DNA from: Chloroflexota bacterium
GTDB lineage: Bacteria; Chloroflexota; Dormibacteria; Dormibacterales; Dormibacteraceae
Reading direction: 5' to 3'
DNA length: 40,510 nt
Assembly (NCBI GenBank): GCA_005880175.1
Contig: VBJR01000222.1
Span: 14,383 to 54,892, forward strand
This document shows positions 3,797 to 38,946 of this stretch, piece by piece (the first letter of the stretch is position 1; the number at the start of each line of letters is the position of its first letter). The notes beneath the pieces were generated by a model. That model searched no databases. It was given only the letters and a program-made list of their open reading frames with translations, and was not told the origin of the DNA. The position numbers and the translations under genes were made by a program.

Positions 3797-4329
3797 TCAG
3801 GGCCGGCGGATGAGCTGGAGGAACTCCGCGCGGGTGCGGGCGTCGTCGCGGAAGCAGCCCAGCATGCAGGAGGTGACGGTCTGGCCCGGCCGCTCCACCC
3901 CGCGCATCTCCATGCACAGGTGGCGCGCCTCGACCACGACCGCGACCCCGCCGGGGTGGGTCACCGAATCCAGCCCCTCGGCGATCTGCCGCGTCATGCG
4001 CTCCTGGAGCTGCAGCCGGTGCGCGTAGACATCGACCAGCCGCGGGATCTTGCTCAGCCCGACCACCTTGCCCTGGGGGACGTACGCGACGTGCGCCTGG
4101 CCGAAGCAGGGCAGGAGGTGGTGCTCGCGTCGTAGTCCTCCTCGAACAGCGCGTCGCCGACCGCGTCCGACGCCTCCATCCCGTAGCCGTCGGTCAGGAA
4201 CCGCAGCGAGCGCGAGACGCGCTCGGGCGTGTCCACCAGGCCCTGCCGGGCCGGGTCCTCGCCCACCTCGCGGAGCAGCCGCTCGACCAGCCGCGGCATC
4301 TCGTCGTCGAACCGGGGGGCGACGCTCAT
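3797..4329 (-). pseudogene. folE: GTP cyclohydrolase I, disrupted by internal deletion with frameshift
   Basis: From ATG 4329 (ATGA overlap with the upstream stop) the frame encodes a normal FolE start through FEEDYDA near 4126. The family then has a strand ending in CEHH, but here the sequence jumps to [17 protein letters not shown] in another frame, which continues normally to the stop at 3797. About 14 residues, including the first zinc-ligand cysteine, are missing. Total length is 533 nt; adding about 40 nt gives a standard 190-residue FolE. The later HLCMEMRG block with the second zinc cysteine is intact. FolE converts GTP to dihydroneopterin triphosphate, the entry to folate, biopterin and 7-deazapurines. 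As written no active enzyme can be made; a sequence error is possible. Confidence 0.85.
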
Positions 4330-4790
4330 CGCCACACCTCCACCGCGTTGTTCTCGGACTCGACCAGGCGCACACGGCTCAGGCGAGCCGGCGACCCCGT
4401 CTCGCGCAGGTGCTCCTCCAGCCGGGCCCAGAACGCCAACGCGACGTTCTCGGCGGTCGGCACCACGCCGTGCAGGAACGGCACGTCGTGGTTGAGGTGG
4501 CGGTGGTCGACGTGGTCGACGACCGCGTCCCGGACCACGCGGTCGAGGTCGCGCAGGTTGAGGACCATGCCGGTCTCGGGATCCGGCTGGCCGCTCACCG
4601 ACACCTCCAGCACGTAGTTGTGCCCGTGGTCGCGGGCGCAGGCGCCGAACACGGCCGCGTTCCGCTCCTCGTCCCAGTCACCACGCCGCAGGACGTGCGC
4701 CGACGCGAACGTCACTCGCCGGGTGAGCAGCAGCGCGGGAGGCGCCGCCAGGCCGGAATCCTGACGGGTGTCCGTATGAATCTTGAGCAT
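4326..4790 (-). CDS. 6-pyruvoyl-tetrahydropterin synthase / QueD family protein
   Basis: 154 residues of the T-fold PTPS/QueD family. Zinc histidines are H32 (FASAH), H55 and H57 (DHGHNY); the catalytic cysteine is C51 (C-x3-HGH); D95-H96 (VDHRHLN) and the terminal ESENN glutamate complete the site. Residues 1-22 extend beyond the usual start, but ATG 4790 has a good AGGAG four bases upstream. The family converts dihydroneopterin triphosphate to 6-pyruvoyl-tetrahydropterin (biopterin) or to 6-carboxy-tetrahydropterin (queuosine). No queC, queE or queF is nearby, while folE, an SDR and a GT4 follow without gaps, so a biopterin-type role is favoured by context. It heads a four-gene minus-strand operon and diverges from the methyltransferase. 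Confidence 0.85.
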
Positions 4791-4802
4791 TTAACTCCTA
4801 CA

Positions 4803-4808
4803 TATACT
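4803..4808 (+). promoter_or_regulatory. -10 box TATACT, leaderless-type
   Basis: TATACT lies 8 nt before ATG 4817, so transcription should start at or next to the initiation codon. No ribosome-binding site precedes that ATG. The AT-rich segment is shared with the divergent pterin operon. Confidence 0.6.
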
Positions 4809-4816
4809 GACACCCA

Positions 4817-5650
4817 ATGCGGTACGAGGACGCCGTGGCCAGCGCGCCCGCCGGCAGCGAGCGCTTCCGGCCCGCGGATCTGGCCCGCCTCGGCCGCGCG
4901 TCGATGCGGCGGCTCCTGGCCCCGGGGCCCAGCGCGCCTCCGCTCGACGACGTCGCCGCGGCGCTGGCCGGCGACCCCCCGACGCTGCTCGCGATCGCCT
5001 CGTCCCTCCAGCTCGCGCGCGGCGAGCGCCTGCTGCGCCTGAGCCGGCGGCGGTGGCCGCCCGCCGAGCGCGAGGCGGCCGCGCGACGCGTGGTGCGGGG
5101 GGCATTCTGGTACCTGGCCTACGAGCTGGAGAGCGCGCTGTGGGACCGGCTGGCCCGCGCCGAGCGGATCGCGCCGGCCCTGCTCGCCGACCTGCCGGCG
5201 GACGGGGCCCGCGTGCTCGAGGTCGCCGCGGGCGGCGGCCGGCTCACGGCGGAGCTGGCGCCGCGGGCGGCGGGCCTGGTCGCGATCGAGCCGTGCGGGC
5301 CGCTGCGCGCGCTGCTCAGCCGGCGGCTGCCGGGCGTGGCCGTGGCGGCCGGGACGGGCCTGGAGCTGCCGGTGAGGGCTGGCTGGGCGGACCTGGTCAC
5401 CTCGTGCGCGACGTTCGGCCCCCACCCGCCACTCGGCGGCGACGGCGTCGTCGCGGAGCTGGAGCGCTGCTGCCGGCCAGGCGGGACCGTCGCCGTCGTC
5501 TCGGCCGAGGAGCCGGCCTGGTGGCAGGAGCGGGGCTACGACCTGCGCACGTACCCGGAGCCGCCCGTCCAGCTCGACCCGGACGTCGAGGCGTTCTTCG
5601 GCCCGGCCCACCCGCCGAGCCAATTGCTGTACAAACGCCTGGCGACATGA
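4817..5650 (+). CDS. Class I SAM-dependent methyltransferase
   Basis: 277 residues. Residues 1-115 are a helical, Arg- and Ala-rich N-terminal region. The Rossmann methyltransferase core follows: motif I VLEVAAGGG at about 133-141, an acidic strand end (VAIEP) and motif IV-like region (WADLVTSCATFG), then PGGTVAVVSAEEPAWW typical of post-motif regions in methyltransferases acting on small molecules. It starts at ATG 4817 behind a leaderless-type -10 box and overlaps the PHP gene by ATGA. The substrate is not predictable. The neighbouring pterin operon is divergent, and no functional link is shown. Confidence 0.8.
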   Translation: MRYEDAVASAPAGSERFRPADLARLGRASMRRLLAPGPSAPPLDDVAAALAGDPPTLLAIASSLQLARGERLLRLSRRRWPPAEREAAARRVVRGAFWYLAYELESALWDRLARAERIAPALLADLPADGARVLEVAAGGGRLTAELAPRAAGLVAIEPCGPLRALLSRRLPGVAVAAGTGLELPVRAGWADLVTSCATFGPHPPLGGDGVVAELERCCRPGGTVAVVSAEEPAWWQERGYDLRTYPEPPVQLDPDVEAFFGPAHPPSQLLYKRLAT

Positions 5651-6663
5651 CCCCGGAGGACGCGGCCGCCACCCTCGCCGAGATCGCCTACCTGCTGCGG
5701 CACAAGGGCGACAGCCACCGCGCACGCGCCTTTTCGCGCGTGGCCACCAGCGTGCTGCGCGACCGGCCGGACATCGACGCGCTGCGCGCGAGGGGGCAGC
5801 TGGAGTCGATCGACGGCGTCGGCGCCACGATCGCGCGCATCCTCGCCGAGCTCGTGGACACCGGCACCAGCACGTATCTGGACAAGCTGCGCGAGGAGCT
5901 GAAGCTGCCCTCGCTCTCGGACATGCAGTTCGAGCTGTCGCCGCTCGTCGAGATGGGCTACCGCGGCGACCTGCACGCCCACACCGACTGGTCCGACGGC
6001 CACGCCAGCATCACGCAGATGGCGCAGGCGGCGAAGGCCCGCGGGTACCAGTACCTCGCGATCACGGACCACTCGCCCCTGATCACGGTCGTCAACGGCC
6101 TCGGGCCGGAGCGCCTGGCCGCCCAGCGCCGCATGATCGACGCGGCCAACCAGGAGGTGGAGGGCATCACGATCCTCCAGGGCATCGAGGTGGACATCCT
6201 GGAGGACGGCACGCTCGACCTGCCCGACGACACGCTGGCCGCGCTCGACGTGGTCATCGCGTCGCCGCACATGAAGCTGCGAATGGAGCGAGCGGCGATG
6301 ACCGAGCGCATGCTGCTCGCGGTGCGGCACCCGCACGTGGACATCGTCGGCCATCCGACCGGGCGCCGCCCCGGCTCGCGGGCGGGCGCCGAGTACGACT
6401 TCGAGGCGGTGTTCCGCGAGGCGGCCAGCCGGGGCGTGGTCATGGAGATGGACTGCGACCCGGCGCGCATGGACCTCTCGCCGGAGCTGGCCGCGCTGGC
6501 CGCCTCGTGCGGCTGCCGCCTGAGCCTCGACTCCGACGCGCACGCGCCCGACCAGCTGCTGTACGTGGACCTGGGCATCTGGATGGCGCGCCGGGCGGGG
6601 GTGGACACGGACCGGATCATCAACTGGCTCCCCCTGCCGGAGCTGCGGGAGGTGTTCGCGTAG
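5647..6663 (+). CDS. PHP-domain phosphoesterase with PolX-like HhH N-terminal domain
   Basis: 338 residues, starting at ATG 5647 in an ATGA overlap. Residues 1-85 resemble the lyase/8-kDa domain of family X DNA polymerases, with a helix-hairpin-helix (ESIDGVGATIARIL, about 53-66). Residues 105-338 are a PHP domain with its metal ligands: HAH 110-112, DH 141-142, E181 (GIEVD), H208, H236 (GHPTGR) and D297-H299 (DSDAH). Bacterial PolX has lyase, palm and PHP domains in about 570 residues; here the whole palm/fingers nucleotidyltransferase is absent, so it cannot be a polymerase. A 3'-end-processing or abasic-site repair nuclease is plausible but inferred. A histidinol-phosphatase-like activity is the alternative. 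Confidence 0.85.
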   Translation: MTPEDAAATLAEIAYLLRHKGDSHRARAFSRVATSVLRDRPDIDALRARGQLESIDGVGATIARILAELVDTGTSTYLDKLREELKLPSLSDMQFELSPLVEMGYRGDLHAHTDWSDGHASITQMAQAAKARGYQYLAITDHSPLITVVNGLGPERLAAQRRMIDAANQEVEGITILQGIEVDILEDGTLDLPDDTLAALDVVIASPHMKLRMERAAMTERMLLAVRHPHVDIVGHPTGRRPGSRAGAEYDFEAVFREAASRGVVMEMDCDPARMDLSPELAALAASCGCRLSLDSDAHAPDQLLYVDLGIWMARRAGVDTDRIINWLPLPELREVFA

Positions 6664-6665
6664 CC

Positions 6666-7577
6666 ATGGCGGAGCTCGGCGTGATGATCGAGGCCCAGGA
6701 GGGGCTGGACTGGGAGCGGTGGCGCCGCATCGTGCGGGACGCCGAGCGGCTCGGCTTCGCGGCGCTGCGCGTCAGCGACCACTGCCAGTCGGTGTTCGGC
6801 GTCGAGGGCCGGCGGTCGCTGGCGGCCTGGCCCGCGCTGGCGCTGGCGGCCGAGTGGACCGAGCGCATCCAGCTCGGGACCATGGTCAGCCCGATGACGT
6901 TCTACGAGCCGGCGGTGCTGGCCCGGCTCGCCCTGGCGGTGGACGAGCTGGCGGGCGGCCGCCTGATCCTGGGCCTGGGTGCCGGCTGGAACGTCGCCGA
7001 GCACGAGCGGTTCGGCATCCCGCTCCCGCCCACGTGGCGCGAGCGGTTCGACCGGCTGGAGGCGGGCATCGTCCGCGTCCGGGAGACGTTCGCGGGCCGG
7101 GACATCCCGCTGCTGATCGGCGGGACTGGACAGAGACGGACGCGGACGATCGCGGCCCGGGAGGCGGCGGAGTGGAACGGGGGCGCGCCGGACGGGCCGG
7201 CGTACCGGGAGCTGTCCGCGGCACTGGACGACCGCTGCCGCGAGATCGGCCGCGACCCGTCGGCGATCCGCCGCTCGCTCATGAAGAGCTGCGTCGTCGG
7301 CCGCGACCTGGACGAGCTGCGCCGGCGCGTGGTCGAGATCGCGCGAGTCGTCCCGCCGCCGCGGCTGACCGGCGAGACGGCGGACGAGCTGCTGGCCTCG
7401 GCGCGCCTGCGCTGGTTCGTGGGCACGCCAGACGAGGTCGCGGCCCAGATGCGGCCGTTCGCCGAGGCGGGCGCGGACCTGTTCCTGCTCCAGCACTTCG
7501 CGCTGGACGACGCGGACGCGCTGGAGCTGCTGGCGGGCGAGGTCGCGCCCCGGGTGGCGGGCATGGGTCAGCGCTGA
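6666..7577 (+). CDS. LLM-class (luciferase-like) F420- or flavin-dependent oxidoreductase, possible internal gap
   Basis: 303 residues beginning at ATG 6666, two bases after the PHP stop. TIM-barrel LLM features are clear: RVSDHCQSVFG near 36-45, TMVSPMTFYEPAVLARL near 72-88, the conserved GLGAGW at 103-108 and AEWNGG in the C-terminal half. Enzymes with this signature usually use F420 to oxidise or reduce small organic substrates. After TFAGR (141-145) the family nearly always continues with HYRL and a PKP-V-Q segment before the PLLIGG strand; here DIPLLIGG follows at once, so about 15-30 residues appear missing in frame near base 7100. It may be inactive or the sequence may be wrong. The substrate is unknown. 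Confidence 0.8.
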   Translation: MAELGVMIEAQEGLDWERWRRIVRDAERLGFAALRVSDHCQSVFGVEGRRSLAAWPALALAAEWTERIQLGTMVSPMTFYEPAVLARLALAVDELAGGRLILGLGAGWNVAEHERFGIPLPPTWRERFDRLEAGIVRVRETFAGRDIPLLIGGTGQRRTRTIAAREAAEWNGGAPDGPAYRELSAALDDRCREIGRDPSAIRRSLMKSCVVGRDLDELRRRVVEIARVVPPPRLTGETADELLASARLRWFVGTPDEVAAQMRPFAEAGADLFLLQHFALDDADALELLAGEVAPRVAGMGQR

Positions 7578-7610
7578 ATCTCGGACCCGACGGCGGCGGC
7601 TGACGGCTGG

Positions 7611-7616
7611 TAGCGT
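7611..7616 (+). promoter_or_regulatory. -10 box TAGCGT, leaderless-type
   Basis: TAGCGT lies 9 nt before ATG 7626 of the FAD reductase gene in the short gap after the LLM gene. No ribosome-binding site is visible before that ATG. It is a weaker match than most of the similar boxes in this window. Confidence 0.4.
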
Positions 7617-7625
7617 CTGGGCGAT

Positions 7626-8733
7626 ATGGACGCCGACCTGGCGGTCATCGGGGGCGGACCGGTCGGCTCCACCCTGGCGCTGCTGGCGGCGCGCGCCGGA
7701 CGCCGCGTGACCGTGATCGAGAAGGGGCGGCTGCCCCGTGACAAGCCGTGCGGCGAGGGCCTGCTGCCGAGCGGCGTCCGCGTCCTCGCCAGCGCCGGGA
7801 TCGACCTGGCGGCCGAGGGCTTCCCGGTGGTGGCGGGCGTCCGGTACCGCCTCGAGGGCGGGCCGACGGTGCGCGGCGACCTCCAGCCCACGCCGGGGCG
7901 CGGGGTCCGGCGGACCCGGTTCGACGCGCTGCTGGCGGAGCGGGCGGCGGCGACGCCGGGGGTGACCCTGGTCTGCGCGTGCGCGGCCTCGGCGGTGCGG
8001 GTGGAGCCGGGGGCGGTGCGCGTCGAGACCGCCGCGGGACCGCTGCGGGCGCGGGCGGTCGTGGCGGCGGACGGCCTCCGCTCGGCGACGGCCCGCTGGC
8101 TGGGCTGGGCCCGGCAGCCGGAGGGGCGCGGCCGTCACGCGCTGGTGGGCCATCTCGCCGCCGGCCCCCAGGCGCTGGGCGACGAGGTCGTGGTCACCCT
8201 GCTGGACGGGATGGAGGTGTACGCGGCGCCGGCCGGGCCGGACGAGGCGCTGGTCGCGCTGCTGGCGCCGCGCGGCTCACTGCGCCGTCCCGGCGCGACC
8301 GTGACGGAGAGCTACCTCGAGGCCGTGCGCCGGGCCCACCCGGGGCTGGCCGGCGCGCCGCTGACCGGCCGGGTCCGCGGCGCCGGGCCGTTCTGGACGC
8401 GGCCCCGGACCGTGGCGCGGGATCACGGCCGGGCTGACGCAGGTCGAGGCGCTGGCGGCGCTGCTGTCGTGCCCGCTCGACCTGGCCGACGGGCGCCAGG
8501 TGGCTGGCGCGGCGGCGCGCTACCGGGCCTGGCACGCGCGGCAGTGGCGGCGGCGCCGGCTGGTCACGTCGCTGGCGCTGGCGCTGACGGGCTCGACGGC
8601 GCTGGCGCGGCGGGCGATGGCGGGGGTCGGCCGCCGGCCGCAGGCGCTGGAGGCGCTGCTCGAGGTCAACGACGGCACGCGCGGGCTGGCCGCGGTCAGC
8701 CCGCGCGACTGGGCCGCGCTGGCGGGGTTCTGA
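7626..8733 (+). pseudogene. Geranylgeranyl-reductase-family FAD oxidoreductase, disrupted by internal deletion/frameshift
   Basis: The first frame (7626 to about 8420) has the FAD-binding GGGPVGS, the DKPCGEGLLPSGV segment typical of geranylgeranyl-reductase-like enzymes, and the VVAADGLRS motif. It should continue into the GDAAG FAD motif and a GEGI segment. Instead the reading jumps at about 8420 to ITAGLTQVEALAALL in another frame, ending at TGA 8733. Roughly 20 residues with the second FAD motif are lost and the frame changes. Reductases of this family often accompany type III polyketide synthases, modifying the ring or side chain, and the PKS starts a few bases later. As written it is non-functional; artefact or recent mutation is open. 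Confidence 0.85.
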
Positions 8734-8737
8734 GCGC

Positions 8738-11393: not shown

Positions 11394-11448
11394 GAGACCG
11401 CCTCGACGGGTTCGATGCGATACGCGTTCATCGCTTCCCATGTTGAAC

Positions 11449-11454: not shown

Positions 11455-11460
11455 CAGCCC

Positions 11461-17552: not shown

Positions 17553-19139
17553 TCAGTCGACGTCTGCGGCCGGCAGGATCCGCAGCCGTCGCTGCGGCTC
17601 CTTGCCCGTGCTCCTCGCCACCAGCTCGTGCTCGGTGACGAGCTGGTGCTGCAGCCGGCGGATATAGGCATTCTGGGGCGAGATCTCCTGCGACTGCAAC
17701 GTGGTCTTCACCTTGCGAATCGCGTCCAGCGCCTCGTCCAGCGCCCGCTGCACGCCCGGGTCGGGCGCCTCGCCGCCGTACAGCCGCCCCAGGGCCTCCT
17801 TGACCTGGGCCACCGAGTTGCTCCTCAGGATGTGCACAGGCACCCCGGCGCTCTCCGCCTGGCGCAGGATGTCGGGCCGCCGCCGGTAGTAGTTCTTGAG
17901 CGTCAGCACGACGTCCGCCCCGTCCAGGTTGCCCAGCACCTTCACCGGCAGCTCCAGCTCCCGGATCGACTGCTCCAGGTACGAGCGCGACACGCCATAC
18001 GGGAACACCGTCCGCGGCCGCCGGGTGGGCAGCAGCGTGACCTTGCCGTTGCCACCGTTCGCCGCGTGGTGCGCGCCGCCGCTGCCGTTGCCGTGGACGG
18101 TCATCGGCCGGGCGTCGCCCTCGACGTTCGAGATGATCCGGCCCTCGCGGGTCCGCATCCGGATCCGGGGCGTCGGCAGCGGCCCCCGAAGCGCGGCGTC
18201 CACCACCTCCGCCAGCGGCTGGTGGATCGCCACCCGCTCGCGGTCCTGGATCTCGATCAGGACGTCGAACGTCGGCGGGGACTTGCGCTCCAGCACGGTC
18301 TTCTGCGTCCCGCGCCGGCGCGCCTCCTCGTCGGACAGCGTGACCGACTGGATGCCGCCGAGCAGGTCGTTCAACGTGGGGTTGACCAGCAGGTTCTCCA
18401 GCGTCTGGCCGTGAGCGGTCGCGATCAGCTGGACGCCCCGCTCCGCGATCGTGCGGGCGGCGGCCGCCTCCAGCTCCGTGCCGATCTCGTCGATGACGAT
18501 GACCTCCGGCATGTGGTTCTCCACGGCCTCGATCATCACGGCGTGCTGGAGCAGCGGGGTGCGCACCTGCATCCGGCGCGCCCGGCCGATGCCGGGGTGC
18601 GGGATGTCGCCGTCGCCCCCGATCTCGTTCGAGGTGTCCACGATGACCACGCGCTTGCGCTGCTCGTCGGCGAGCAGGCGCGCGCTCTCCCGCAGCATCG
18701 TCGTCTTGCCGATGCCGGGACGGCCCAGGAGCAGCACGCTCTGGCCGCTCTCCACGATGTCGCGGAAGATCTCGGCCGTGCCCGTCACGGCACGGCCGAC
18801 CCGGCACGTCAGGCCGACGATGCGGCCGCGGCGGTTCCGGATCGCGGAGACGCGGTGCAGCGTGCGCTCGATGCCGGCGCGGTTGTCCTCGCCGAACTGC
18901 CCGACGCGGCTGGCCACGTATTCCAGGTCGGCCTCGGTGACCGGCTGGCTGCTGAGCAGGACCTCGCGGCCGGGGACGCGCGCCTCCGGCTCGCGGCCCA
19001 GGTCCAGGACGATCTCCAGCAGCTCGGCCGGGTCCGTCCGCTCGTGCAGCGCGTCGTACAGGTGCGACGGCAGGGCCTGCGCGAGCAGTTCGACCTCGGG
19101 GTCCCAGTTCGGGACCGGGGTGGGGAAATGGCTTTGCAT
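17553..19139 (-). CDS. AAA ATPase with R3H domain (Ycf45/SpoIIIAA-like)
   Basis: 528 residues from ATG 19139. The N-terminal 120 residues resemble the domain preceding SpoIIIAA-type ATPases; Walker A is GRPGIGKT (139-146), Walker B VIVIDEIG (214-221), followed by a TAHGQT sensor-like motif. A Gly/His-rich linker (HGNGSGGAHHAANGGNG) leads to a C-terminal region. The last 50 residues form an R3H single-stranded nucleic-acid-binding motif (NAYIRRLQHQLVTEHEL, with R-x3-H). Orthologues occur in cyanobacteria, plastids (Ycf45) and Chloroflexota; the cellular role is not settled. It starts 10 nt after the GNAT stop without an obvious ribosome-binding site. Confidence 0.85.
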   Translation of the reverse strand: MQSHFPTPVPNWDPEVELLAQALPSHLYDALHERTDPAELLEIVLDLGREPEARVPGREVLLSSQPVTEADLEYVASRVGQFGEDNRAGIERTLHRVSAIRNRRGRIVGLTCRVGRAVTGTAEIFRDIVESGQSVLLLGRPGIGKTTMLRESARLLADEQRKRVVIVDTSNEIGGDGDIPHPGIGRARRMQVRTPLLQHAVMIEAVENHMPEVIVIDEIGTELEAAAARTIAERGVQLIATAHGQTLENLLVNPTLNDLLGGIQSVTLSDEEARRRGTQKTVLERKSPPTFDVLIEIQDRERVAIHQPLAEVVDAALRGPLPTPRIRMRTREGRIISNVEGDARPMTVHGNGSGGAHHAANGGNGKVTLLPTRRPRTVFPYGVSRSYLEQSIRELELPVKVLGNLDGADVVLTLKNYYRRRPDILRQAESAGVPVHILRSNSVAQVKEALGRLYGGEAPDPGVQRALDEALDAIRKVKTTLQSQEISPQNAYIRRLQHQLVTEHELVARSTGKEPQRRLRILPAADVD

Positions 19140-20082: not shown

Positions 20083-20672
20083 GCGGTCCTGGCCCCCTCC
20101 ACAAGTCTCAGGAACTCTCGGTGCAGACGCAAGTCCCCGCTGAGCTCCGGATGGAACGCCAGCGCCATCACGCTGCCCTGCCGGACGGCCACCGGATGGC
20201 CGTCGTGCTCCGCCAGCACCTCGGCCCCGCCCACCTCCTCGATCACGGGCGCCCGGATGAACACGCCCGGGAACGGGCCGCCGTCGAGGCCTCTGAACTC
20301 CACGTCCGCCTCGAAGCTGTCCACCTGCCGTCCGTAGCCGTTGCGCCGGACGCCGATGTCCACCGCGCCCAGCACCACCTGGCCGTCCCGGCCGTCGGTC
20401 ACGTGGCCGGCGAGGACGATCATGCCCGCGCACGTGCCGAGCGTGGGCAGGCCGCCGCGCACCGCGTCCGCGACCGCGTCGAGCAGGCCCATGCGCTCCA
20501 TCAGCATCGTCATCGTCGTGCTCTCGCCGCCCGGGATGACCAGGCCGTCGAGGCCCACGAGGTCGGCCGGCAGCCGCACCAGGCGCGTCCGCGCGCCGCA
20601 TGCCTCCAGGGCTCGCACGTGCTCACGGAAGGCGCCCTGCATCGCGAGGACGCCGATCAGGGGTGCTACCAA
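20079..20672 (-). CDS. pdxT: Pyridoxal 5'-phosphate synthase glutaminase subunit
   Basis: 197 residues of a class I glutamine amidotransferase. The oxyanion region PGGEST is at 47-52, nucleophile C81 in GTCAGM, and the H174/E176 pair in FHPEL. It liberates ammonia from glutamine and channels it to PdxS for de novo vitamin B6 synthesis. TTG 20672 lies inside the end of pdxS, overlapping its last codons, so the subunits are translationally coupled. The gene appears intact, in contrast to its partner. Confidence 0.95.
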
Positions 20673-21508
20673 CCGCGGCTGGCGAGCAGCTCCTCCCGCG
20701 GGATCGCCTTGATCTCGAGCCCGCGCATGGGCTCGCCCAGGCCGGTGGAGACCTCGGCCAGGATCTCCGGCTTGTCGTAGTACGTGGTTGCCGCGACGAT
20801 CGCCTTGGCTCGCTTGAGGGGATCCTCCGACTTGAAGATACCGGAGCCGACGAACACCCCATCGGCGCCCAGCTGCATCATCCACGCTGCGTCCGCCGGG
20901 GTCGCGATGCCGCCGGCCACGAACGTCACCACGGGCAGCCGGCCCAGCCGCTGCACCTCGGCCAGGAGGTCCACCGGGGCGCCCAGCTGCTTGGCCTCGT
21001 GGACCAGCTCCGCGTAGGTCACGCCCTGGAGCCGGCGGATGCCGGCGGACACGGCCCGCAGGTGACGCGTGGCCTCGACGATGTTGCCGGAGCCGGCCTC
21101 GCCCTTGGTCCGGATCATGGCCGCGCCCTCGGCGATGCGCCGCAGCCCCTCGCCGAGCTCCCGGCAGCCGCACACGAACGGCACCGTGAACGGCCACTTG
21201 TCGATGTGGTACTCCTCGTCGGCCGGGGTGAGGACCTCCGACTCGTCGATGTAGTCCACGCCCAGCGCCTGAAGGATCTGGGCCTCGACGGTGTGTCCGA
21301 TGCGACACTTGGCCATCACGGGGATGGTCACCGCTTCCATGATCGACTTGATCAGCGCCGGGTCCGACATGCGGGCCACGCCGCCCTCCTTGCGGGCCTG
21401 CTCGGGCGTTACGACGTCCATGATGACGCCGCCCTTCAGCATCTCGGCGTGCCCGGACTTGACGCGGAAGGTGCCCTTGACGGCGTCGTGTCCGTTTGTC
21501 TCTGCCAT
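20666..21508 (-). CDS. pdxS: Pyridoxal 5'-phosphate synthase subunit PdxS with in-frame internal gap
   Basis: 280 residues. Conserved sites are present: D31 (VIMDVV), K67 (VMAKCRIGH, the ribose-5-phosphate lysine) and K135 (RTKGEAG, the second lysine), with the C-terminal RGW. PdxS builds PLP from ribose 5-phosphate, glyceraldehyde 3-phosphate and ammonia. However, family members read from EQA through an IAEEAGA...MALERVPADI block to GGVARM; here [12 protein letters not shown] is contiguous, so about 21 residues spanning a barrel strand and helix are missing without a frameshift. A barrel lacking this block should not fold normally. The gene heads a six-gene operon behind a TAGAAT box. Confidence 0.9.
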
Positions 21509-21517
21509 CTGTTCTGC

Positions 21518-21523
21518 ATTCTA
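21518..21523 (-). promoter_or_regulatory. -10 box TAGAAT before pdxS, leaderless-type
   Basis: TAGAAT on the minus strand ends 9 nt before ATG 21508. It is a close match to the -10 consensus. It should drive the whole pdxS-pdxT-GNAT-R3H ATPase-tmk-darA unit. Confidence 0.6.
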
Positions 21524-21561
21524 GCGATGGACCGAAGACCTTCCTTGACGGCGACGCCGGC

Positions 21562-22677
21562 GTGATCCCCGGAGTCCTCACTGGGCTGCGCGTCGTGGAG
21601 CTGTCGGCCTTCGTGGCCGCTCCGCTCGGCGGCGCCACACTGGCCGCGATGGGCGCGGACGTGATCCGCGTGGACCCGCTCGGGGGCGGCATCGACGCCC
21701 GCCGCTGGCCCCTGCACGGGAGCCGCAGCCTGTACTGGGAGAACCTCAACCGGGGCAAGCGCTCGGTCGCGCTGGACCTGCGGTCGGAGCGCGGGCTGGA
21801 GGTGGCCGCCCGGCTGGCCGCGGACGCCGGCACGGTGCTGACGAACCTCCCGGCCCGGCGGCCGCTGGAGTACGAGCGGCTGCGCGAGCAGCGCCCCGAC
21901 CTGGTGATGGTGTCTATCACCGGCCGGACCGACGGCGGCGCCGCCGTCGACTACACGGTGAATGCCGGCATGGGCTTCCCCTGGATCACCGGGCCGGAGG
22001 GGTACGACCGGCCGGTCAACCACGCGCTGCCGGCGTGGGACGTGGCCACCGGCTTCCTGGCCGTCGCCGGGGTGCTCGCGGCCGACCGGCACCGCCTGCT
22101 CACGGGCGAGGGCCGGCTGGTCCGCCTCAGCCTCGCCGAGGTGGCGCTGGTGGTGGCCGGCCACCTGGGCCTGCTGGCCGAGGCCCAGCTCGTCGAGGAG
22201 TCGCGCGGGCGGTTCGGCAACCACGTCTACGGCACGTTCGGCCGCGACTTCCGGACCCGGGACGGCCGCTACGTCATGGTGCTGGCGCTGACGCCGCGCC
22301 AGATGCGGAGCCTGGCCGAGGCGACCGGGCTCCCGTTCGAGCGGATCGAGGCCGACCTGGACGACGAGGGAGAGCGGTGGCGCCACCGCGAGGAGCTGTG
22401 CGCCCTGCTCGAGCCGTGGGTCGCGGAGCGGTCGCTGGCGGAGGTCCGGGACGCGTTCGAGCGCCACCAGGTGCTGTGGGGACCCTACCGCACGTTCAAG
22501 GAGCTGCTGGAGAGCGAGGCCGAGGCCTGGCGGCCACCCGCGACCGCGCTCGACTTCGGCGAGGCCCAGCGGCGGGCCGCGCAGCCCGCGCCCACGCTGG
22601 GCGCCGACACCGACGCCGTCCTGGCCGAGATCGGCGAGGACGCCGGCGACCTACGTGCGCGCGGGTTGATCGCCTAG
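21562..22677 (+). CDS. CaiB/BaiF-family enzyme resembling 2-methylfumaryl-CoA isomerase (Mct)
   Basis: 371 residues from GTG 21562. It fits the subgroup annotated as 2-methylfumaryl-CoA isomerase/mesaconyl-CoA C1-C4 CoA transferase better than ordinary CaiB proteins: LRVVELSAFVAAPLGG, GGGIDARRWP, VDYTVNAGMGFPWITGP (129-145), LPAWDVATG (156-164), LALTPRQM and LWGPYRTFKELLE. In Chloroflexus, Mct moves CoA within mesaconate during the 3-hydroxypropionate bicycle. Near residue 320 the family has a NP-x-F...QPG-x-G-x-Y block before LDFGE; here ESEAEAWRPPATALDFGE is short by about 17 residues, another likely in-frame gap. None of the other bicycle genes is visible, so the pathway role is open. Confidence 0.75.
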   Translation: MIPGVLTGLRVVELSAFVAAPLGGATLAAMGADVIRVDPLGGGIDARRWPLHGSRSLYWENLNRGKRSVALDLRSERGLEVAARLAADAGTVLTNLPARRPLEYERLREQRPDLVMVSITGRTDGGAAVDYTVNAGMGFPWITGPEGYDRPVNHALPAWDVATGFLAVAGVLAADRHRLLTGEGRLVRLSLAEVALVVAGHLGLLAEAQLVEESRGRFGNHVYGTFGRDFRTRDGRYVMVLALTPRQMRSLAEATGLPFERIEADLDDEGERWRHREELCALLEPWVAERSLAEVRDAFERHQVLWGPYRTFKELLESEAEAWRPPATALDFGEAQRRAAQPAPTLGADTDAVLAEIGEDAGDLRARGLIA

Positions 22678-31273: not shown

Positions 31274-31286
31274 GCCCGGTCACCTC

Positions 31287-31781: not shown

Positions 31782-31783
31782 CC

Positions 31784-31858
31784 TGAGCAGATCGCCGCAG
31801 GCCCCCCTTCCGGAACCCCCCAAAGGGGACGTTCGGGGCGCCTGCGGCGATCTGCTCA
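31784..31858. terminator. Long inverted repeat, candidate bidirectional terminator
   Basis: Perfect 19-bp arms (TGAGCAGATCGCCGCAGGC at 31784-31802 and its complement at 31840-31858) flank a 37-nt loop that can itself pair partly (CCGGAACCCCCC with GGGGACGTTCGGGG). It lies exactly between the convergent yajQ and kinase genes; the right arm contains the kinase stop codon. There is no U-run, so a factor-dependent terminator, an mRNA-stabilising hairpin or a REP-like element is equally possible. Confidence 0.6.
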
Positions 31859-33555
31859 AGCGGTCCGATCTTCGCCGCCGCCCGCCCGGTTCGCCTCCGG
31901 CCGGTTCGCCCCGTGCCGGCCCAGCCGCCGGCCCAGGTCGCCCAGGCGCAGCACCAGGTCCTCGTCCTCCCGGCGCGGGCCGGCGCAGAACAGCTCCAGC
32001 ATCCCGCGCACCTCCTGCGCGGTCGCGATCGGGATGGCGACCGCGCCGTGCAGACCCGCGCGGAGCGCCGGCACGATCCTCGGCTCGTCCGGCTCGTGCA
32101 GCACGTCCTCGACCCACACCAGCTCGCCGCTCGTCCACGCGCGGCCGGCCAGGCCGCAGCCCGGGTCCAGGCGGGTGCTCCGCGTGGCCCGGTCGAAGTC
32201 GGGGCAGGCGACCCCCTCGCCGCGCCACACCTCCGCGCACCGGAGGTGTCCCGCCCCGTCTCGCAGCCAGAGCGCGCCGACGCTCCAGCCGAGGTGGCTC
32301 CCGATCGCCTCCAGCGCCCGGCAGCCGGCCTCCTGCAGCGTCTCCGTCTCCTCGACGGCCGACGTCCCGGACGAAGCCGACGACCAGCGCCCGGGCGCCG
32401 CTCCGCACCGCCGGGGAGATCGACAGCTCGACGGGGAGCTCGCGGCCGTCGCGGTGCATGGCGGTCACCTCGACCACCCGGCCGACCACCCGCGACTCGC
32501 CCCCCTGCAGGTAGCGCTGGAAGCCGCGCTCGTGCGCCTCCTGGTACCGCGTCGGGATGAGCGTGGTCGAGAGCAGCCGGCCGACGATCTCGTCGGGCGA
32601 CCAGCCGAACGTCAGCTCGGCGGCGCGGTTCCAGCCGGCGATGAAGCTGCTCTCGTCGAGCGCGACGGCGGGCGACAGCGAGTCCTGCACCACGCGCAGC
32701 AGGTGCGCCCGCTGCCGCTCGAACTCGGCGCTCCGGTCGCGACCGGTCGAGTCCTGCACCGGGGTCACGCCGTCCGCCGGCGCCGAGGGCGGCGGCAGGG
32801 CGACGTTCATGCCCAGCGCCAGGCCGAGGTCCCGGAGCAGCTCCGCGGCCGTCTGCGGGCGCTCGTCCGGGTCGGCGGCCAGCGCCCGCTCGAGGACGGC
32901 GTCCACGTACGAGGGCAGGCCGCGGACGAGCTGGCTCGCCGGCGGCACGTACGTGTCCACGGCCAGCCGGAGCTGGTCCGCCAGCGACTCGCCGCGCGGG
33001 CGCAGCGGGCGGCCGGTGAGCATCTCGAACACGACCGCGGCCAGCGCGTAGACGTCCGAGCGGCGGTCGGCGTCGGCGCCCATCGCCTGCTCGGGCGCCA
33101 TGTACTCGGGCGACCCGACCGCGAAGCCCATATGGGTCCGAGCCAGGCCGAAGTCGGCCAGCAGCGGGCGTCCGGCGGCGTCGAACAGCACGTTGCCGGG
33201 CTTGACGTCGCGGTGGACCAGGCCGGCCTCGTGGGCGCGGTGCAGCGCCTCGGCCGTCCCGCTGACGACCGACCAGGTGCGCTCGACGCCCACCGGCCCC
33301 AGGCGCATCAGGTCGCGAAGGGAGCCGCCGGGGGCCAGCGCCGTCGCCACGTACGGGACGCCGTGATCGGTGCCGTGGGCGTGCACCTTGAGCAGGTAGG
33401 GGTGGCCGAGCGCCGAGACCAGGCCGACGTCCTTCTCGAAGCGCTCGCGGAACGACGTACGCGCGATAGACGGACGCGGAGCGTCCGGCGCCGATCCGCG
33501 CCACCAACCGGAAGTGGCCGAGCGTAGCGTCGGTCAGGTCGAAGTCCGCGCGCAC
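31856..33555 (-). pseudogene. Ser/Thr protein kinase-PAS-GAF protein, disrupted at two places
   Basis: Three frames together encode one protein. Frame 1 from GTG 33555 (GGGGGG upstream) gives the kinase start ATLGHFRLVARIGAGRSASVYRAY. Frame 2, entered near 33457, continues FRERFEKDVGLVSALGHP, then the catalytic HRDVKPGN, DFGLA and SPEYMAPEQ motifs, a linker and a PAS domain (GWNRAAELTFGWSPDEIVGR to GFVRDV). Frame 3, entered near 32362, gives a GAF domain (LGWSVGALWLRD, LAGRAWTSGELVWVEDVL, AVAIPIATAQEV). The first junction loses the strand with the ATP-binding lysine; the second loses the PAS-GAF connector. Intact relatives are signalling kinases sensing redox or small ligands. As written no active kinase is made. 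Confidence 0.8.
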
Positions 33556-33622
33556 GCCGTGCCCCCCAAAGACCCCAATGACAAGGAAGTTTGGCACGAA
33601 CCGGCGATGTGGGTCTGAACGC

Positions 33623-33628
33623 TATGGT
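33623..33628 (+). promoter_or_regulatory. -10 box TATGGT before hisA
   Basis: TATGGT lies 11 nt before ATG 33640. The distance is slightly longer than the other boxes. The in-frame GTG at 33631 would be too close to it, favouring ATG 33640. Confidence 0.4.
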
Positions 33629-33639
33629 GCGTGCGGAAC

Positions 33640-34362
33640 ATGCGCATCGTTCCCGCCCTCGACCTGCGCGACGGCCGTGTCGTCCGACTCGGCGAGCACG
33701 GCGATTTCGCGAGCGAGCGCGCCTTCGCCGACGGGCCCGACGCGGCGGTCGCGCTGGCCCGGCGCTACGTCGAGGCGGGCGCCAGCCGGCTGCACGTCGT
33801 GGACCTGGACGCGGCCCGCGGCAGCGGCGACAACCGCGAGCTGGTCTCGCGGCTGGTCACGGAGGCGCGGGCCGAGGTCCAGGTGTCCGGCGGCGTCCGC
33901 TCGGCCGGCGACGCCGACCGCTGGGTCGCCGCCGGCGCCGCGGCGGTGGCGATGGGCACCGCGGCGGTCCGCGACCCGGCCCTGCTGGCCCGCGTCGCCC
34001 GCCGGCACGAGGGCCGGGTGCTGGCGGCGCTCGACGTGCGCGCCGGCCGGCCCGCGGTCAGCGGCTGGGGCGAGGTCGCCGACCTGACCGTCGCAGAGCT
34101 CCTGGCCCGGTGGGCGGGCGCCCCGCTGGCCGGCCTGGTCGTCACGAGCGTGGACCGGGACGGAACGCTGGCCGGTCCCGACCTGGCCCTGCTGGAGCAG
34201 GTCACCGCGCTGACCGGCGTGCCGGTGACGTACTCGGGCGGCGTCGGGTCGCTCGCGGACGTCCGGGCGGTCGCGGCGGCAGGCGCGGCGGCCGTCATCA
34301 TGGGCCGCTCGCTGCTGGAGGGGCTGGTTTCGCTCGAGGACGTCCTGGCCCTCTCGTCCTGA
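33640..34362 (+). CDS. hisA: HisA-type phosphoribosyl isomerase
   Basis: 240 residues, full family length. The TIM-barrel half-repeats are clear: D8 in VPALDLRDGRVVRL, the first phosphate loop VSGGVRSAGDA, the second catalytic aspartate D132 in LAALDVRAG, TSVDRDGTLAGPD, and the closing phosphate loop TYSGGVGSLADV with IMGRSLLEG. HisA converts ProFAR to PRFAR in histidine synthesis. No other his gene is in the window. In actinobacteria a HisA homologue (PriA) also serves tryptophan synthesis; this cannot be decided here. Confidence 0.88.
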   Translation: MRIVPALDLRDGRVVRLGEHGDFASERAFADGPDAAVALARRYVEAGASRLHVVDLDAARGSGDNRELVSRLVTEARAEVQVSGGVRSAGDADRWVAAGAAAVAMGTAAVRDPALLARVARRHEGRVLAALDVRAGRPAVSGWGEVADLTVAELLARWAGAPLAGLVVTSVDRDGTLAGPDLALLEQVTALTGVPVTYSGGVGSLADVRAVAAAGAAAVIMGRSLLEGLVSLEDVLALSS

Positions 34363-34408
34363 ACCCGCTCGAGCGCACGGAACCCATTGCACGGGAGCCG
34401 CTCGGGCG

Positions 34409-34414
34409 TACTCT
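34409..34414 (+). promoter_or_regulatory. -10 box TACTCT, leaderless-type
   Basis: TACTCT lies 8 nt before GTG 34423. An AGAGGG stretch falls within the gap, so a short leader is also possible. Confidence 0.45.
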
Positions 34415-34422
34415 AGAGGGCA

Positions 34423-34869
34423 GTGCTCGAAGTGGTGGTCGGCGCGGTGGCCGGTCTGCTGGTCCTCATCGGCGTGCTGGTGATGATCGGTCCGGCGCTG
34501 CCGCGTTCCTTCGGCTTCGCTCGGGGGCGTGGGCGCGGACCGCGTCCGGCGGCCCAGCGCAGGCCCTCCCGTTCGGCCCCGGCCGAGCTCCACCCGACCA
34601 CGGTCCGCGCCCTGTCCGTGACGGCACGGCTCATGGGGATGTTGAAGGAGCACGGCATGGACCGCCACGCGGCCGCGATGCGGCTGGCGGGCCGGCGGCT
34701 GCAGGTGGACGAGGCGAACGGCATCCAGGCGATGCGGCAGGTGCTCCGTCACCTGCGCGGCGTGCGGATGGAGGACGACTCGGACCAGCGGATCTTCCAG
34801 GGCCTGGTGGGCCAGCTGCAGAAGGCGCTGGACGAGCGGGCCGAGCAGCTGGAGCTGCTGCCGAACTAG
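34423..34869 (+). CDS. Small N-terminally anchored helical protein, unknown
   Basis: 148 residues. One transmembrane helix at about 4-25 (VVVGAVAGLLVLIGVLVMIG) is followed by a basic Pro/Arg-rich linker (about 32-55) and a helical domain (60-148) with MGMLKEHGMDRHAAAMRLAG and IFQGLVGQLQKALDERAEQ. No known family recognised. It follows hisA by 60 nt with its own -10-like box. An 87-nt gap without features separates it from the MFS gene. Confidence 0.6.
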   Translation: MLEVVVGAVAGLLVLIGVLVMIGPALPRSFGFARGRGRGPRPAAQRRPSRSAPAELHPTTVRALSVTARLMGMLKEHGMDRHAAAMRLAGRRLQVDEANGIQAMRQVLRHLRGVRMEDDSDQRIFQGLVGQLQKALDERAEQLELLPN

Positions 34870-34977
34870 CCGTCGTCGGGCGACGCGGCGCCGCGCGTCA
34901 GGCCCCGCCCCGCCACCCGGGGCCCACCTGATCGTTCCGGGGGCCCGATTCGCCACTTGGTGAGAACATCAGTCACC

Positions 34978-36240
34978 GTGGCCACCGCGCCCAGGCCCGC
35001 AGCCTCGTCGCCGCGGCGGCGCGGGCTGGGGGCCCTTCGCCACCGCAACTACCGCCTGTTCCTCGGCGGCCAGCTCGTCTCGACGGTCGGCACCTGGATG
35101 CAGAGCATCGCCCAGCCCTGGCTGGTGCTCCAGCTCACCCACTCCGCCCTGCTGGTCGGCCTCGCCCTGGCCATGCAGTACCTGCCCATGCTGGTCGCCG
35201 GCCCGTTCGGCGGCCTGGTCGCCGACCGCTTCCCCAAGCGCCGCGTCCTCCAGGTCACCCAGACCGCGTGCATCCTGCCCGCCCTCGCCCTGTTCGCCGC
35301 CACCGCCGCGCACACCGCGACCTACCCCCTGGTCCTCGCCTGCGCCTTCGCGTGGGGCGTGATCCAGGTGGTGGACGTCCCGACCCGGCAGGCGTTCGCC
35401 ATCGAGATGGTCGGCCGCGACGACCTGATGAACGCCATCGCGCTCAACTCCTCGATCTGGAACTCGGCCGCGGTCATCGGCCCCTCGCTCGCCGGCCTCC
35501 TGATCGCCCTGGCCGGCGTCCCCGTCTGCTTCCTCCTCAACGCCCTCTCCTGCCTCGCCGCCATCGCCAGCCTGGCCCTGATGCGCAACCTGCCCAGGCT
35601 CCTGCCCGACCGCGAGCCGCAGCGGATGGTCCGGCGGGTGGTCGAGGGCGCCCGGTACGTGCGCGCCGACCCGGTCGTCTTCGGCCTCCTGCTGGTCACC
35701 GGCGCGTTCTCGCTCTTCGCGATGAACCGGCTGACGCTGGTCCCGCTGTTCGCCGACCAGGTCCTGCACGCCGGCGCCGCCGGGTTCGGCTTCCTGATGG
35801 GCGCGCAGGGGCTGGGCGCGATGACCGGCGGCCTCACGCTGGCGTTCCTGCGCCGCCCGGCCAGCGGCCGCCGCCAGTTCTGGATCGGGCTGGCATGGGC
35901 GGCCGTCCTGCTGGCGTTCAGCTTCAGCCCGTGGTTCCCGCTCTCGATGCTGCTCTTCTTCCTCGCGGGCACGTGCCAGATGTGGTTCCTCGCCGCCGCC
36001 AGCTCGCGCGTGCAGAAGGCCACGCCGGACCGCCTGCGGGGGCGCGTCATCGCCTTCTACGCGCAGGCCGTGATGGGCGTCGGCCCGCTCGGCGCGACGC
36101 AGGCCGGCGCGCTCGCGTCGTGGCTCGACCCGCCGCTCACGATGGCGATCGGCGCGGGCGTGTCGGCGGTCGTCCTGGTGGCCGTCCGGCTGCTCAGCCC
36201 GGCCGCGTTCACCCTCGACCCGGACGACTACCGCACCTGA
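34978..36240 (+). CDS. MFS transporter (MFS_3 / EntS-like exporter)
   Basis: About 420 residues with 12 predicted membrane helices. After a basic Pro-rich N-terminus, LGALRHRNYRLFLGGQLVSTVGTWMQSIAQPWLV and the loop GGLVADRFPKRRVL match the MFS_3 group, which includes enterobactin and macrolide exporters. The motif VDVPTRQAFAIEMVGRDDLMNAIALNS is typical of it, as is the late TPDRLRGRVIAFY. It probably exports a small molecule by proton antiport. The start is ambiguous among TTG 34957, GTG 34960 and GTG 34978; the last is closest to the usual N-terminus. The substrate is unknown. Confidence 0.88.
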   Translation: MATAPRPAASSPRRRGLGALRHRNYRLFLGGQLVSTVGTWMQSIAQPWLVLQLTHSALLVGLALAMQYLPMLVAGPFGGLVADRFPKRRVLQVTQTACILPALALFAATAAHTATYPLVLACAFAWGVIQVVDVPTRQAFAIEMVGRDDLMNAIALNSSIWNSAAVIGPSLAGLLIALAGVPVCFLLNALSCLAAIASLALMRNLPRLLPDREPQRMVRRVVEGARYVRADPVVFGLLLVTGAFSLFAMNRLTLVPLFADQVLHAGAAGFGFLMGAQGLGAMTGGLTLAFLRRPASGRRQFWIGLAWAAVLLAFSFSPWFPLSMLLFFLAGTCQMWFLAAASSRVQKATPDRLRGRVIAFYAQAVMGVGPLGATQAGALASWLDPPLTMAIGAGVSAVVLVAVRLLSPAAFTLDPDDYRT

Positions 36241-36241
36241 C

Positions 36242-36247
36242 TATCAT
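36242..36247 (+). promoter_or_regulatory. -10 box TATCAT, leaderless-type, fixing the next start
   Basis: TATCAT lies 7 nt before ATG 36255 and overlaps the earlier in-frame ATG 36246, so transcription from here leaves only ATG 36255 for initiation. It begins at the second base after the MFS stop codon. Confidence 0.5.
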
Positions 36248-36254
36248 GTCGGCG

Positions 36255-36479
36255 ATGATCCGGCGCAGGAGGCGCACCGCTGCGAACAGCCTGGACGAGC
36301 TGGCCAGCGAGACGTCGGAGCTGGTGACGAGACTCCTGCGCGAGCACCGGGTGCTGCGGGCCGAGAACGAGCTCCTGAAGCGCGAGGTCGAGCGCCTGTC
36401 CACGGGCTGGGACGAGGTCCGGCGGCTGGCCCGGCTGGCGCCCCGCCGGCGCCGGGGACGCAAGCCCGCGGCGAGGTAG
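36255..36479 (+). CDS. Small basic coiled-coil protein, unknown
   Basis: 74 residues. A basic start (MIRRRRRTAANS) leads into a leucine-zipper-like helix (ELASETSELVTRLLREHRVL continuing to AENELLKREVERL), and the tail is very basic (RRRRGRKPAAR). The composition suggests a nucleic-acid-associated coiled-coil protein, but no family is recognised. Its position behind a leaderless-type box and GC-rich codon use support a real gene. It is followed by a 73-nt gap before the PrpD gene. Confidence 0.6.
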   Translation: MIRRRRRTAANSLDELASETSELVTRLLREHRVLRAENELLKREVERLSTGWDEVRRLARLAPRRRRGRKPAAR

Positions 36480-36552
36480 CGCCCACGCCGGCCGCCGCTC
36501 GTGCGGAGAATGGGAGTGTCTGTCCCAGGGAGCCGTGCAAGGAGGGTCGATG

Positions 36553-37875
36553 ATGGGCGCGACCAGGGAGATCGCCGCGTGGGTCGCGGACGCCGAGCTG
36601 CGGGCCATGCCTGCCGAGGTCGTGGAGCGGGCGCGAGCGGGGGTCGTGGACACGATCGGCGTGATCCTGGCCGGGGTCGACGAGCCGGTGACGCGGATCG
36701 CCGCCGGGCTCGTCGCCGAGGACGGCGGCGCCCCGGTCGCGTCCCAGCTCGGGACCACGCTGCGGACGACCGCCGAGTCCGCCGCCCTGCTCAACGGCAT
36801 CAGCGGTCACGCCCTCGACTACGACGACGTCAGCGCCTCGCTGACCGGCCATCCCAGCGTCGTGGTCGTGCCCGCGGCGCTCGCGGCGGCCGAGCTGACG
36901 GGCGCGACCGGCGCCGGGTTCCTGCAGGCGTACGTGGTGGGCGTCGAGGTGATGGCCAAGCTGGGCCTGGCGATCGGGCCGGCGCACTACCGGGCCGGGT
37001 GGCACGCCACGTCCACGCTCGGCACCCTGGGCGCCGCGGCGGCCGCCGCCAGCGTGCTCCGCCTGGATTCGGAGCGCACCGCCCACGCGCTGGCCATCGC
37101 CGTCTCCGAGGCGTCGGGCAGCCGTCGCAACTTCGGGACGATGACCAAGCCGTTCCACGCCGGCCACGCCGCCCGCTGCGGCGTGTCCGCCGCCCGCCTG
37201 GCCGCCCGGGGCATGACCGGCGATCCGACCGCGATCGAGGCGCCGCTCGGCCTGTTCGCCCTGCTCTCGTACGGCGAGGGCAGGCCGGAGGCGATCGCCC
37301 CGACCCTTGGCCGGCCGTACGACCTGGCCAGCGCCGGCCTGAGCGTGAAGAAGTACCCGTGCTGCTTCGCCACCCACCGGGCGGCCGACGCGGTCCTAGA
37401 CCTGCGCGCTGAGCACGGCCTCACGGACCCCGAGCAGGTCGAGGCGGTGCGGGTGACGGTCCCGGTCGGCGGCGTGTCGCCGCTCATCCACGACCGGCCG
37501 GTCACCGGCCTGGAGGCCAAGTTCAGCATGCAGTACGTGCTGGCCGCCGCCCTCCTCGACGGCCGGGTCGGCCTCGACGCGTTCGACGACGCAGGCATCG
37601 CGGGCGGCGTGAACCCCATCGAGGAGGGCCACGTGGACGTCGAGCTCCGGCTCCGCGCCGGCGGCGCGCTCACGCGGCGGGTCAGCCACCCCCGCGGGTC
37701 GGCGGCCGACCCCCTCCGCGCGGAGGACCTGGCCGCCAAGTTCCTCGACTGCGCGGACGCCGCGCTGGAGCCCGAGGACGCCGAGGCCGCGCTGGGCCGC
37801 CTGCTGCGGATCGACCGCGAGCCGGACGTGCGCGGCCTGGTCGCCGCGCTCACGCCGGGGGTGACCGTGCGATGA
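36553..37875 (+). CDS. MmgE/PrpD-family protein with probable in-frame gap
   Basis: 440 residues. Family motifs are LNGISGHALDYDDV, the glycine-rich HATSTLGTLGAAAAA, GTMTKPFHAGHAARCG, KKYPCCFATHRAADA, and LEAKFSMQYVLAAALLDGRVGLDAF. MmgE/PrpD proteins include 2-methylcitrate dehydratase and cis-aconitate decarboxylase. After DAFDD relatives have a stretch of about 20-25 residues (a P-E-V-R-x-L-M-x-R-V type helix) before NPIEEGHV; here DAGIAGGVNPIEEGHV follows directly, indicating another in-frame loss near 37598. GGAGG lies 7 nt before ATG 36553 (ATG 36550 is the alternative). It overlaps the CaiB gene by ATGA. The substrate is probably a branched or tricarboxylic acid but is not determined. 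Confidence 0.85.
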   Translation: MGATREIAAWVADAELRAMPAEVVERARAGVVDTIGVILAGVDEPVTRIAAGLVAEDGGAPVASQLGTTLRTTAESAALLNGISGHALDYDDVSASLTGHPSVVVVPAALAAAELTGATGAGFLQAYVVGVEVMAKLGLAIGPAHYRAGWHATSTLGTLGAAAAAASVLRLDSERTAHALAIAVSEASGSRRNFGTMTKPFHAGHAARCGVSAARLAARGMTGDPTAIEAPLGLFALLSYGEGRPEAIAPTLGRPYDLASAGLSVKKYPCCFATHRAADAVLDLRAEHGLTDPEQVEAVRVTVPVGGVSPLIHDRPVTGLEAKFSMQYVLAAALLDGRVGLDAFDDAGIAGGVNPIEEGHVDVELRLRAGGALTRRVSHPRGSAADPLRAEDLAAKFLDCADAALEPEDAEAALGRLLRIDREPDVRGLVAALTPGVTVR

Positions 37876-38946
37876 CCCTGCCGCTCAATGGCATCCAGGT
37901 GCTCGACCTGACCCGCAACCTGGCCGGCCCGTACGCCTCGATGATCCTGGGCGAGCTCGGCGCCGACGTCGTCAAGGTCGAGAGCCCGGGTGGCGACGAC
38001 ACGAGGCTGTGGGGGCCGCCGTTCTGGGAGGGCGAGAGCGCCGTCTTCCTGGCCGCCAACCGCAACAAGCGCTCGATCGCCCTGGACCTGCGGACCGACG
38101 AGGCGCGCGAGGTGATGGAGCGCCTGTGCCGGCGCTCGGACGTGCTGCTGGAGAGCTTCCGGCCGGGCGCGCTGGAGCGCCTCGGCTACGGCTACGGGTG
38201 GGCGCGCTCGCTGAGCCCCGGCATCGTCTACTGCAGCGTCACCCCGTACGGCGAGGGCGGCCCGCTGCGCGACAAGCCGGGCTACGACCCGATGATGCAG
38301 GCCTATAGCGGGCTGATGAGCCTCTTGGGCGAGGACGGGCGCCCGCCGGTCCGGGTCACCGCCTCGATCATCGACATGGGGGCGGCGATGTGGTCGGTGA
38401 TCGGCATCCTCGCCGCGCTGCGCGAGCGCGACCGCACCGGCAAGGGCGGCATCGTCGACACCTCGCTCTTGGAGACCGGGCTGGCCTGGATGACGATCAT
38501 GCTGCCGAGCTATATCGCGAGCGGCGTCTTGCCCGAGCGGCACGGCTCGGGCGTGGACATGATCGTGCCGTATCAGGCCTTCGCCGCGAGCAACGGCCAC
38601 ATGATGGTCGCGGCCGGCAACGACAATCTGTTCCGCCGCCTCTGCGCCGCGCTCGACCGGCCGAGCGGGCCGGTCCACGGAGGAGCTGGCGGCCTCCCTC
38701 CAGCTCGCGGGCGTGCCCTGCAGCCCGATCCGCGACGCGGCGGGCGCGGCTGCCGAACCGCAGACGCTCGCGTCCGGCATCGTCCAGGCGGCCGACCACC
38801 CGTCCATCGACGGGTTCCGGTCGGTGGGCCTGCCGTTCCTGCTCGACGGCGAGCGGCCGGCCCTGCGCCGCCCGCCGCCAGGACTGGGCGAGCACCAGGC
38901 CGAGGTGCTCCAGGAGCTCGGGCTGACCGCCCGGCAGGAGGCGTGA
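37872..38946 (+). pseudogene. CaiB/BaiF CoA-transferase, disrupted by internal deletion/frameshift
   Basis: Frame 1 from ATG 37872 is a typical formyl-CoA-transferase-family N-terminal portion: GIQVLDLTRNLAGPYASMIL, NRNKRSIALDLR, the catalytic aspartate in SIIDMGAAMWSVIG, GYDPMMQAYSGLM and YQAFAASNGHMMVAAGND. It breaks after LCAALDRP near 38665. The remainder, in another frame, starts STEELAASLQLAGVPCSPIRDA and ends at TGA 38946. About 35-40 residues of the usual DPRF...NREAL region are missing. At the break the DNA is GACCGGCC-gagcg-GGCCGGTC, an 8-bp inverted repeat. CaiB enzymes transfer CoA between acids. It lies between MmgE/PrpD and an acyl-CoA dehydrogenase. Confidence 0.85.

Follow-up and report, generated by a model that had tools for sequence, protein, structure and literature searches.

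Do short gaps in otherwise conserved genes record a loss of function in a bacterium, or the way in which its DNA was sequenced and assembled? The question is raised by a stretch of 40,510 bases from a Chloroflexota assembly (contig VBJR01000222.1), here called the window, in which a preliminary description had listed nine places where one conserved block seemed to be missing. Seven of these, distributed over six genes (folE, a FAD-dependent reductase, PdxS, a Ser/Thr kinase-PAS-GAF gene with two sites, PrpD and a CaiB family gene), are clean losses when compared with relatives. The remaining two do not stand, or stand less well: the gap in a Mct-like CaiB gene is natural, and that in an LLM-type gene is doubtful. 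The seven losses very probably arose in sequencing or assembly and do not represent mutations that the organism carries. This reading draws on intact near-identical homologs, on gaps that are not shared and on different gaps in the PdxS of other records.

The window is a Dormibacteria-like contig with 73.9% GC and no N; its PdxS, PrpD and kinase have database records of their own, under a contig of 54,892 bases. The best matches of its R3H/AAA gene are Chloroflexi, Dormibacterota or Bacillota metagenome bins (84% identity for L001, 76-78% for L002-L005), and several such bins have gene order in common with the window. The proteins of these syntenic relatives were placed on the window by tblastn.

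Seven clean losses in six genes

The seven losses measure 40 to 86 nucleotides (mean 61, standard deviation 14, n = 7), within the range of about 40 to 120 nucleotides first proposed; the LLM-type gene, shorter by 21 nucleotides, falls below that range. Five of the seven shift the reading frame, as had been claimed for folE, the FAD reductase, both kinase sites and CaiB, and alignments to relatives or homologs confirm each case. The losses in PdxS and PrpD are in frame, again as described. Two further places had been proposed as in-frame losses: the LLM-type gap is in frame and possibly natural, and the Mct-like CaiB gap is not a lesion.

The PdxS gene (20669-21508, minus strand) lacks 63 nucleotides, or 21 residues, at 21390..21391. 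All eight genomes in the scan described below agree on this size, and a DNA alignment with three relatives shows one clean block to be missing. In searches of whole genomes, 51 of 61 relatives gave a match that starts at about residue 38 and covers the rest of the protein; a separate match to the first 43-49 residues typically goes with it, offset by the missing stretch. The lost block is present in the aligned sequence of a solved PdxS structure, and its loss would be expected to disable the enzyme. PrpD (36535-37872, plus strand) is shorter by 60 nucleotides, or 20 residues, at 37590..37594 (about 37592).

Among the frameshifting losses, that in folE (GTP cyclohydrolase I, about 3800-4329, minus strand) is a clean deletion of 40 nucleotides at the join 4127..4128. 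Fourteen residues carried by all five syntenic relatives are missing from the window, the tblastn matches of these relatives split at the join, and the Pfam PF01227 match comprises positions 72-179 only, in the downstream frame. The FAD-dependent reductase (about 7626-8733, plus strand) lacks about 59 nucleotides, by hand count, at 8416..8421; in the protein alignment the lost block holds the GDAAG-type FAD motif, and it is present in all eight relatives searched.

The kinase gene (about 31886-33555, minus strand) is broken twice, by a loss of 53 nucleotides between the PAS and GAF domains at 32358..32361 and by a loss of 65 nucleotides over the catalytic lysine block at 33454..33458. Both sizes were counted by hand from the alignment with P0241, a near-identical homolog whose matches lie in different frames on either side of the lost blocks. 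The conservation of the blocks was judged from 40 of 120 listed homologs, a set that excludes distant kinases and the window's own record. The block at about 32359 is kept in 39 of the 39 that reach it, and the block at about 33456 in 37 of 38, P0241 included in both; the exception, P0281, keeps 15 of its 21 positions. Two kinase homologs (L190 and L191) extend into an extra C-terminal part that is absent from the window gene and from P0241.

The CaiB family gene (37872-38946, plus strand) lacks 86 nucleotides at 38666..38668, a frameshift relative to both genomes compared (G001 and G007). Pfam PF02515 is matched over positions 1-261 in one frame and 290-366 in another, with the break at the join. 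Past this frameshift the upstream frame stays open to 40163 through the next acyl-CoA dehydrogenase gene, which produces a spurious fusion reading frame of 763 residues (37872-40163).

The oddness of this load was gauged by a leave-one-out scan, in which a site qualified when two or more genomes, making up no less than three quarters of all that cover it, agreed on the change. Deletions of consistent size and at least 36 nucleotides numbered three in the 18.6 kb of the window covered (40, 63 and 86 nucleotides), against none in 327 kb from 16 control stretches. Smaller consistent deletions were found three times in the controls (30 nucleotides in G001, 18 in G032 and 18 in G015) and once in the window (the 21 nucleotides of the LLM-type gene). 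The control background held one single-base frameshift (G033, 10/10), and no frameshift of one or two bases passed the rule in the 18.6 kb of the window. PrpD, the kinase and the FAD reductase fell outside the scan because they lack syntenic relatives. Insertions in the window at 18071 and 31288 were set aside, as was its mixed site at 35008. Control clusters of mixed or positive size were left uncounted, among them G010 22678 (-112, -103, -4, -1), G010 7105, G031 6694, G022 12806, G004 106 and G013 20626; G010 22678 and G031 6694 sit at the borders of neighbouring open frames. The controls were mostly chosen for contigs holding the PdxS or R3H gene and did not include G012 and G061, whose PdxS is damaged. 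As the window was selected for its lesions, the contrast describes how odd it is and is not an unbiased test.

Intact copies and other damaged records

For three of the six genes, near-identical intact copies are known at the protein level. The intact PdxS P0002 is identical to the window at 277 of 280 shared residues, and the intact PrpD P0122 at 432 of 441 residues outside the 20-residue gap. The kinase P0241 is identical over its three matches at 357/373, 149/158 and 33/34 positions (94-97%); some residues counted in the first match are out of frame.

No relative was found to share any of the seven losses. The PdxS and PrpD homologs considered were the best 120 of many more for each protein. 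The window's PdxS gap does not recur in any of the other 119 homologs on its list, at least one of which (P0102) begins inside the block and is uninformative; the PrpD gap is likewise absent from all 119 others. Independent assemblies also keep the blocks lost from folE (5/5), CaiB (2/2) and the FAD reductase (8/8). Gene decay would leave the same lesions in sister strains, and none was seen in the PdxS and PrpD lists or among the kinase homologs.

Other records of PdxS are damaged at places of their own. P0062, from another assembly, matches the window at 260 of the 263 residues that the two share; it retains the block that the window lacks and has an unshared 17-residue in-frame gap elsewhere. 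The PdxS of G061 (L231, G061:C106) has a clean loss of 91 nucleotides, that of G012 (L230, G012:C137) a gap of 19 N where about 80 nucleotides are expected, and that of G002 (L002) a gap of 236 N where 78 are expected. The part of this conserved enzyme that is lost thus varies from record to record.

Shorter gaps occur in these protein lists as well. One PdxS record (P0082) has an unshared in-frame gap of 10 residues, a stretch of 7 residues near the start is missing from four further PdxS records, and the PrpD record P0237 is 14 residues short. The 7-residue gaps and that of P0237 may be natural.

Origin of the losses

The artefact most likely arose by one of two routes. Molecules could lose about 40 to 90 nucleotides during amplification by template jumping between short homologies, or contig ends could be mis-joined across small holes in coverage; the defective molecules or joins would then be taken as consensus where coverage of a 74% GC genome is thin. 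We infer both the thin coverage and the artefactual status of the losses. Artefacts of template jumping, a putative cause here, resemble the present case in that the losses are clean, direct and tens of bases long, one of them at a 5-nucleotide homology, with intact copies elsewhere; the window differs from them in showing no enrichment of hairpins. Gap and mis-join errors of metagenomes have counterparts in the PdxS of relatives, namely the wrong-sized N gaps of G012 and G002 and the 91-nucleotide loss of G061, and faulty contig joining, one of the causes first suggested, is accordingly plausible. The window nevertheless differs from such errors in that it has no N, carries many joins within a single contig and shows a narrow range of sizes.

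The sequence at the joins fits both routes. At the PdxS join, microhomology amounts to 5 nucleotides with 11 of 26 relatives, to 3-4 with 5 and to none with 10 (chance of at least 5 nucleotides, P = 0.014). Flanking sequence had been called perfect, and this comes close: at the four joins for which near-identical homologs exist, 4 of the 32 adjacent residues are different, compared with about 3% elsewhere (P about 0.012). The differences were scored by eye against a background count that is slightly too high, so that the P value is conservative. Microhomology, size band and flanking differences fit template jumping and poor joining alike and do not tell them apart.

The preliminary description also proposed that a polymerase skipped GC-rich hairpins. 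The CaiB join (38655-38675) lies beside the 5-nucleotide loop of a perfect inverted repeat of 8 bp (GACCGGCC/GGCCGGTC). It is the sole join to stand out in folding: for three of the four window sizes it ranks within the best 2-7% of positions, and for the fourth at 13%. The FAD join is mildly stable (12-24%), the PdxS block of the closest relative, G007, is more stable than all of its local background, and the first kinase block in G018 lies at 0.06. Over all eight joins (LLM included), however, folding is at chance, with a mean percentile of 0.41-0.49 over the four window sizes. Nor do the orthologous blocks of relatives consistently exceed their surroundings in stability: medians are 0.18 for PdxS (26 of 30 loci matched), 0.83 for folE, 0.61 for FAD, 0.94 for PrpD, 0.27 and 0.40 for CaiB, and 0.06 (one locus of two) and 0.62 for the first and second kinase blocks. 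This comparison is weak owing to the divergence of the relatives' DNA, and its search pattern missed 4 of 30 PdxS loci and one of the two loci of the first kinase block. Skipping at hairpins, a route within the artefactual reading, thus lacks overall support and appears rather unlikely. Chimeras from multiple displacement amplification (MDA) of a single-cell genome, another such route, would account for joins at short homologies, as one study describes MDA rearrangements that exploit short complementarity (PMC1855051). In that study, however, 406 of 475 chimeras (85%) had inverted joins, and direct joins spanning less than 10 kb made up just 11 (PMC1855051), whereas all seven joins of the window are direct, which makes this route a very slight prospect.

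Outside the artefactual reading, the losses could be real and recent deletions in at least six genes within 40 kb, in a strain defective in repair or replication or in very recent gene decay. Such deletions would be clean, as these are, and the PdxS join at short homology resembles replication slippage; the coding structure is, moreover, intact over most of the contig. Several genes broken together also recall pseudogene decay. Small indels dominate neutral decay, and the narrow band of 40 to 86 nucleotides is therefore unlike it. Small frameshifts would accompany large lesions in decaying genes, but none passed the scan rule within the 18.6 kb covered. Near-identical intact homologs, the lack of sharing among the listed homologs and the different gap of P0062 argue in the same direction, and at such a density hundreds of genes per genome would be broken. 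Real deletions are accordingly improbable. Still less credence is given to a Dormibacteria-like lineage in which deletions of 40-90 bp are very frequent and even the genes for vitamin B6 and folate can bear them; were it true, repair might, for example, be defective and cofactors be taken up from neighbours, and P0062 and G061 would display the same mutational habit. Natural, lineage-specific length differences do explain the Mct-like CaiB gap and possibly the LLM-type gap, but they fit neither the five frameshifting losses nor the PdxS and PrpD gaps, unseen in the other listed homologs, and as an account of the seven losses they are hardly credible.

Several observations weigh against artefacts as the source of the losses. 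The near-identical intact copies are known as proteins only, and for three of the six genes (PdxS, PrpD and the kinase). Microhomology was computed for PdxS, where it is 0 nucleotides in 10 of 26 relatives, and for P0062, whose loss, placed on the window's intact DNA, shows 3 nucleotides (chance of at least 3 nucleotides, 8.8%). Joining by k-mer overlap needs longer shared sequence than the PdxS join shows, and the hairpin tests were negative overall. The stretches of relatives, at least L001-L006 of which are named as metagenome genomes, do not carry such a load, so that high-GC assemblies cannot be said to show it in general. The artefactual origin of the seven losses is nonetheless preferred. 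The initial judgement that simultaneous recent loss is improbable and that an artefact explains the pattern finds support in the intact near-identical homologs, the absence of sharing, the P0062 gap and the contrast with relatives.

Other features and the meaning of the losses

In the LLM-type gene (about 6663-7559, plus strand), the window's copy is 21 nucleotides shorter at 7104..7107 than those of six of six genomes; these 7 residues fall in a variable, poorly conserved stretch, and the shortening may be natural. The Mct-like CaiB gene (21496-22674, plus strand), listed as a lesion at 22527, differs in length at 22520..22530. G018, 73% identical, has a gap with the same boundaries, and the relatives L212 and L218 carry an extra stretch there. 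The gap is natural by the preliminary description's own standard, under which deletions recurring in relatives are real. An SDR gene (2160-2768) was considered as a further lesion on account of its short Pfam match and was rejected, as its counterparts in G001 (80% identical) and G018 (78% identical) have the same length.

At 18071 the R3H/AAA protein of the window has extra residues, variable in number (median 13), relative to 12 of the 14 genomes covering the site; these are probably natural. The segment 7626-9919 holds the FAD enzyme gene followed by a type III polyketide synthase. The FAD enzyme, which we take to be geranylgeranyl-reductase-like, and its neighbour form a possible small lipid or pigment cluster.

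Among the literature matches listed, which comprised open-licence papers only and are no proof of absence, no title or abstract dealt with such a pattern in metagenome contigs. A gap unique to one record, set against otherwise near-identical homologs, would serve as a simple detector. For the biology of the organism, the losses probably mean nothing. They stand as a warning that such joins can mimic auxotrophy, pseudogenes and odd protein variants in high-GC contigs of uncultured bacteria, and that the in-frame cases (PdxS, PrpD and P0062) pass for ordinary proteins in databases.

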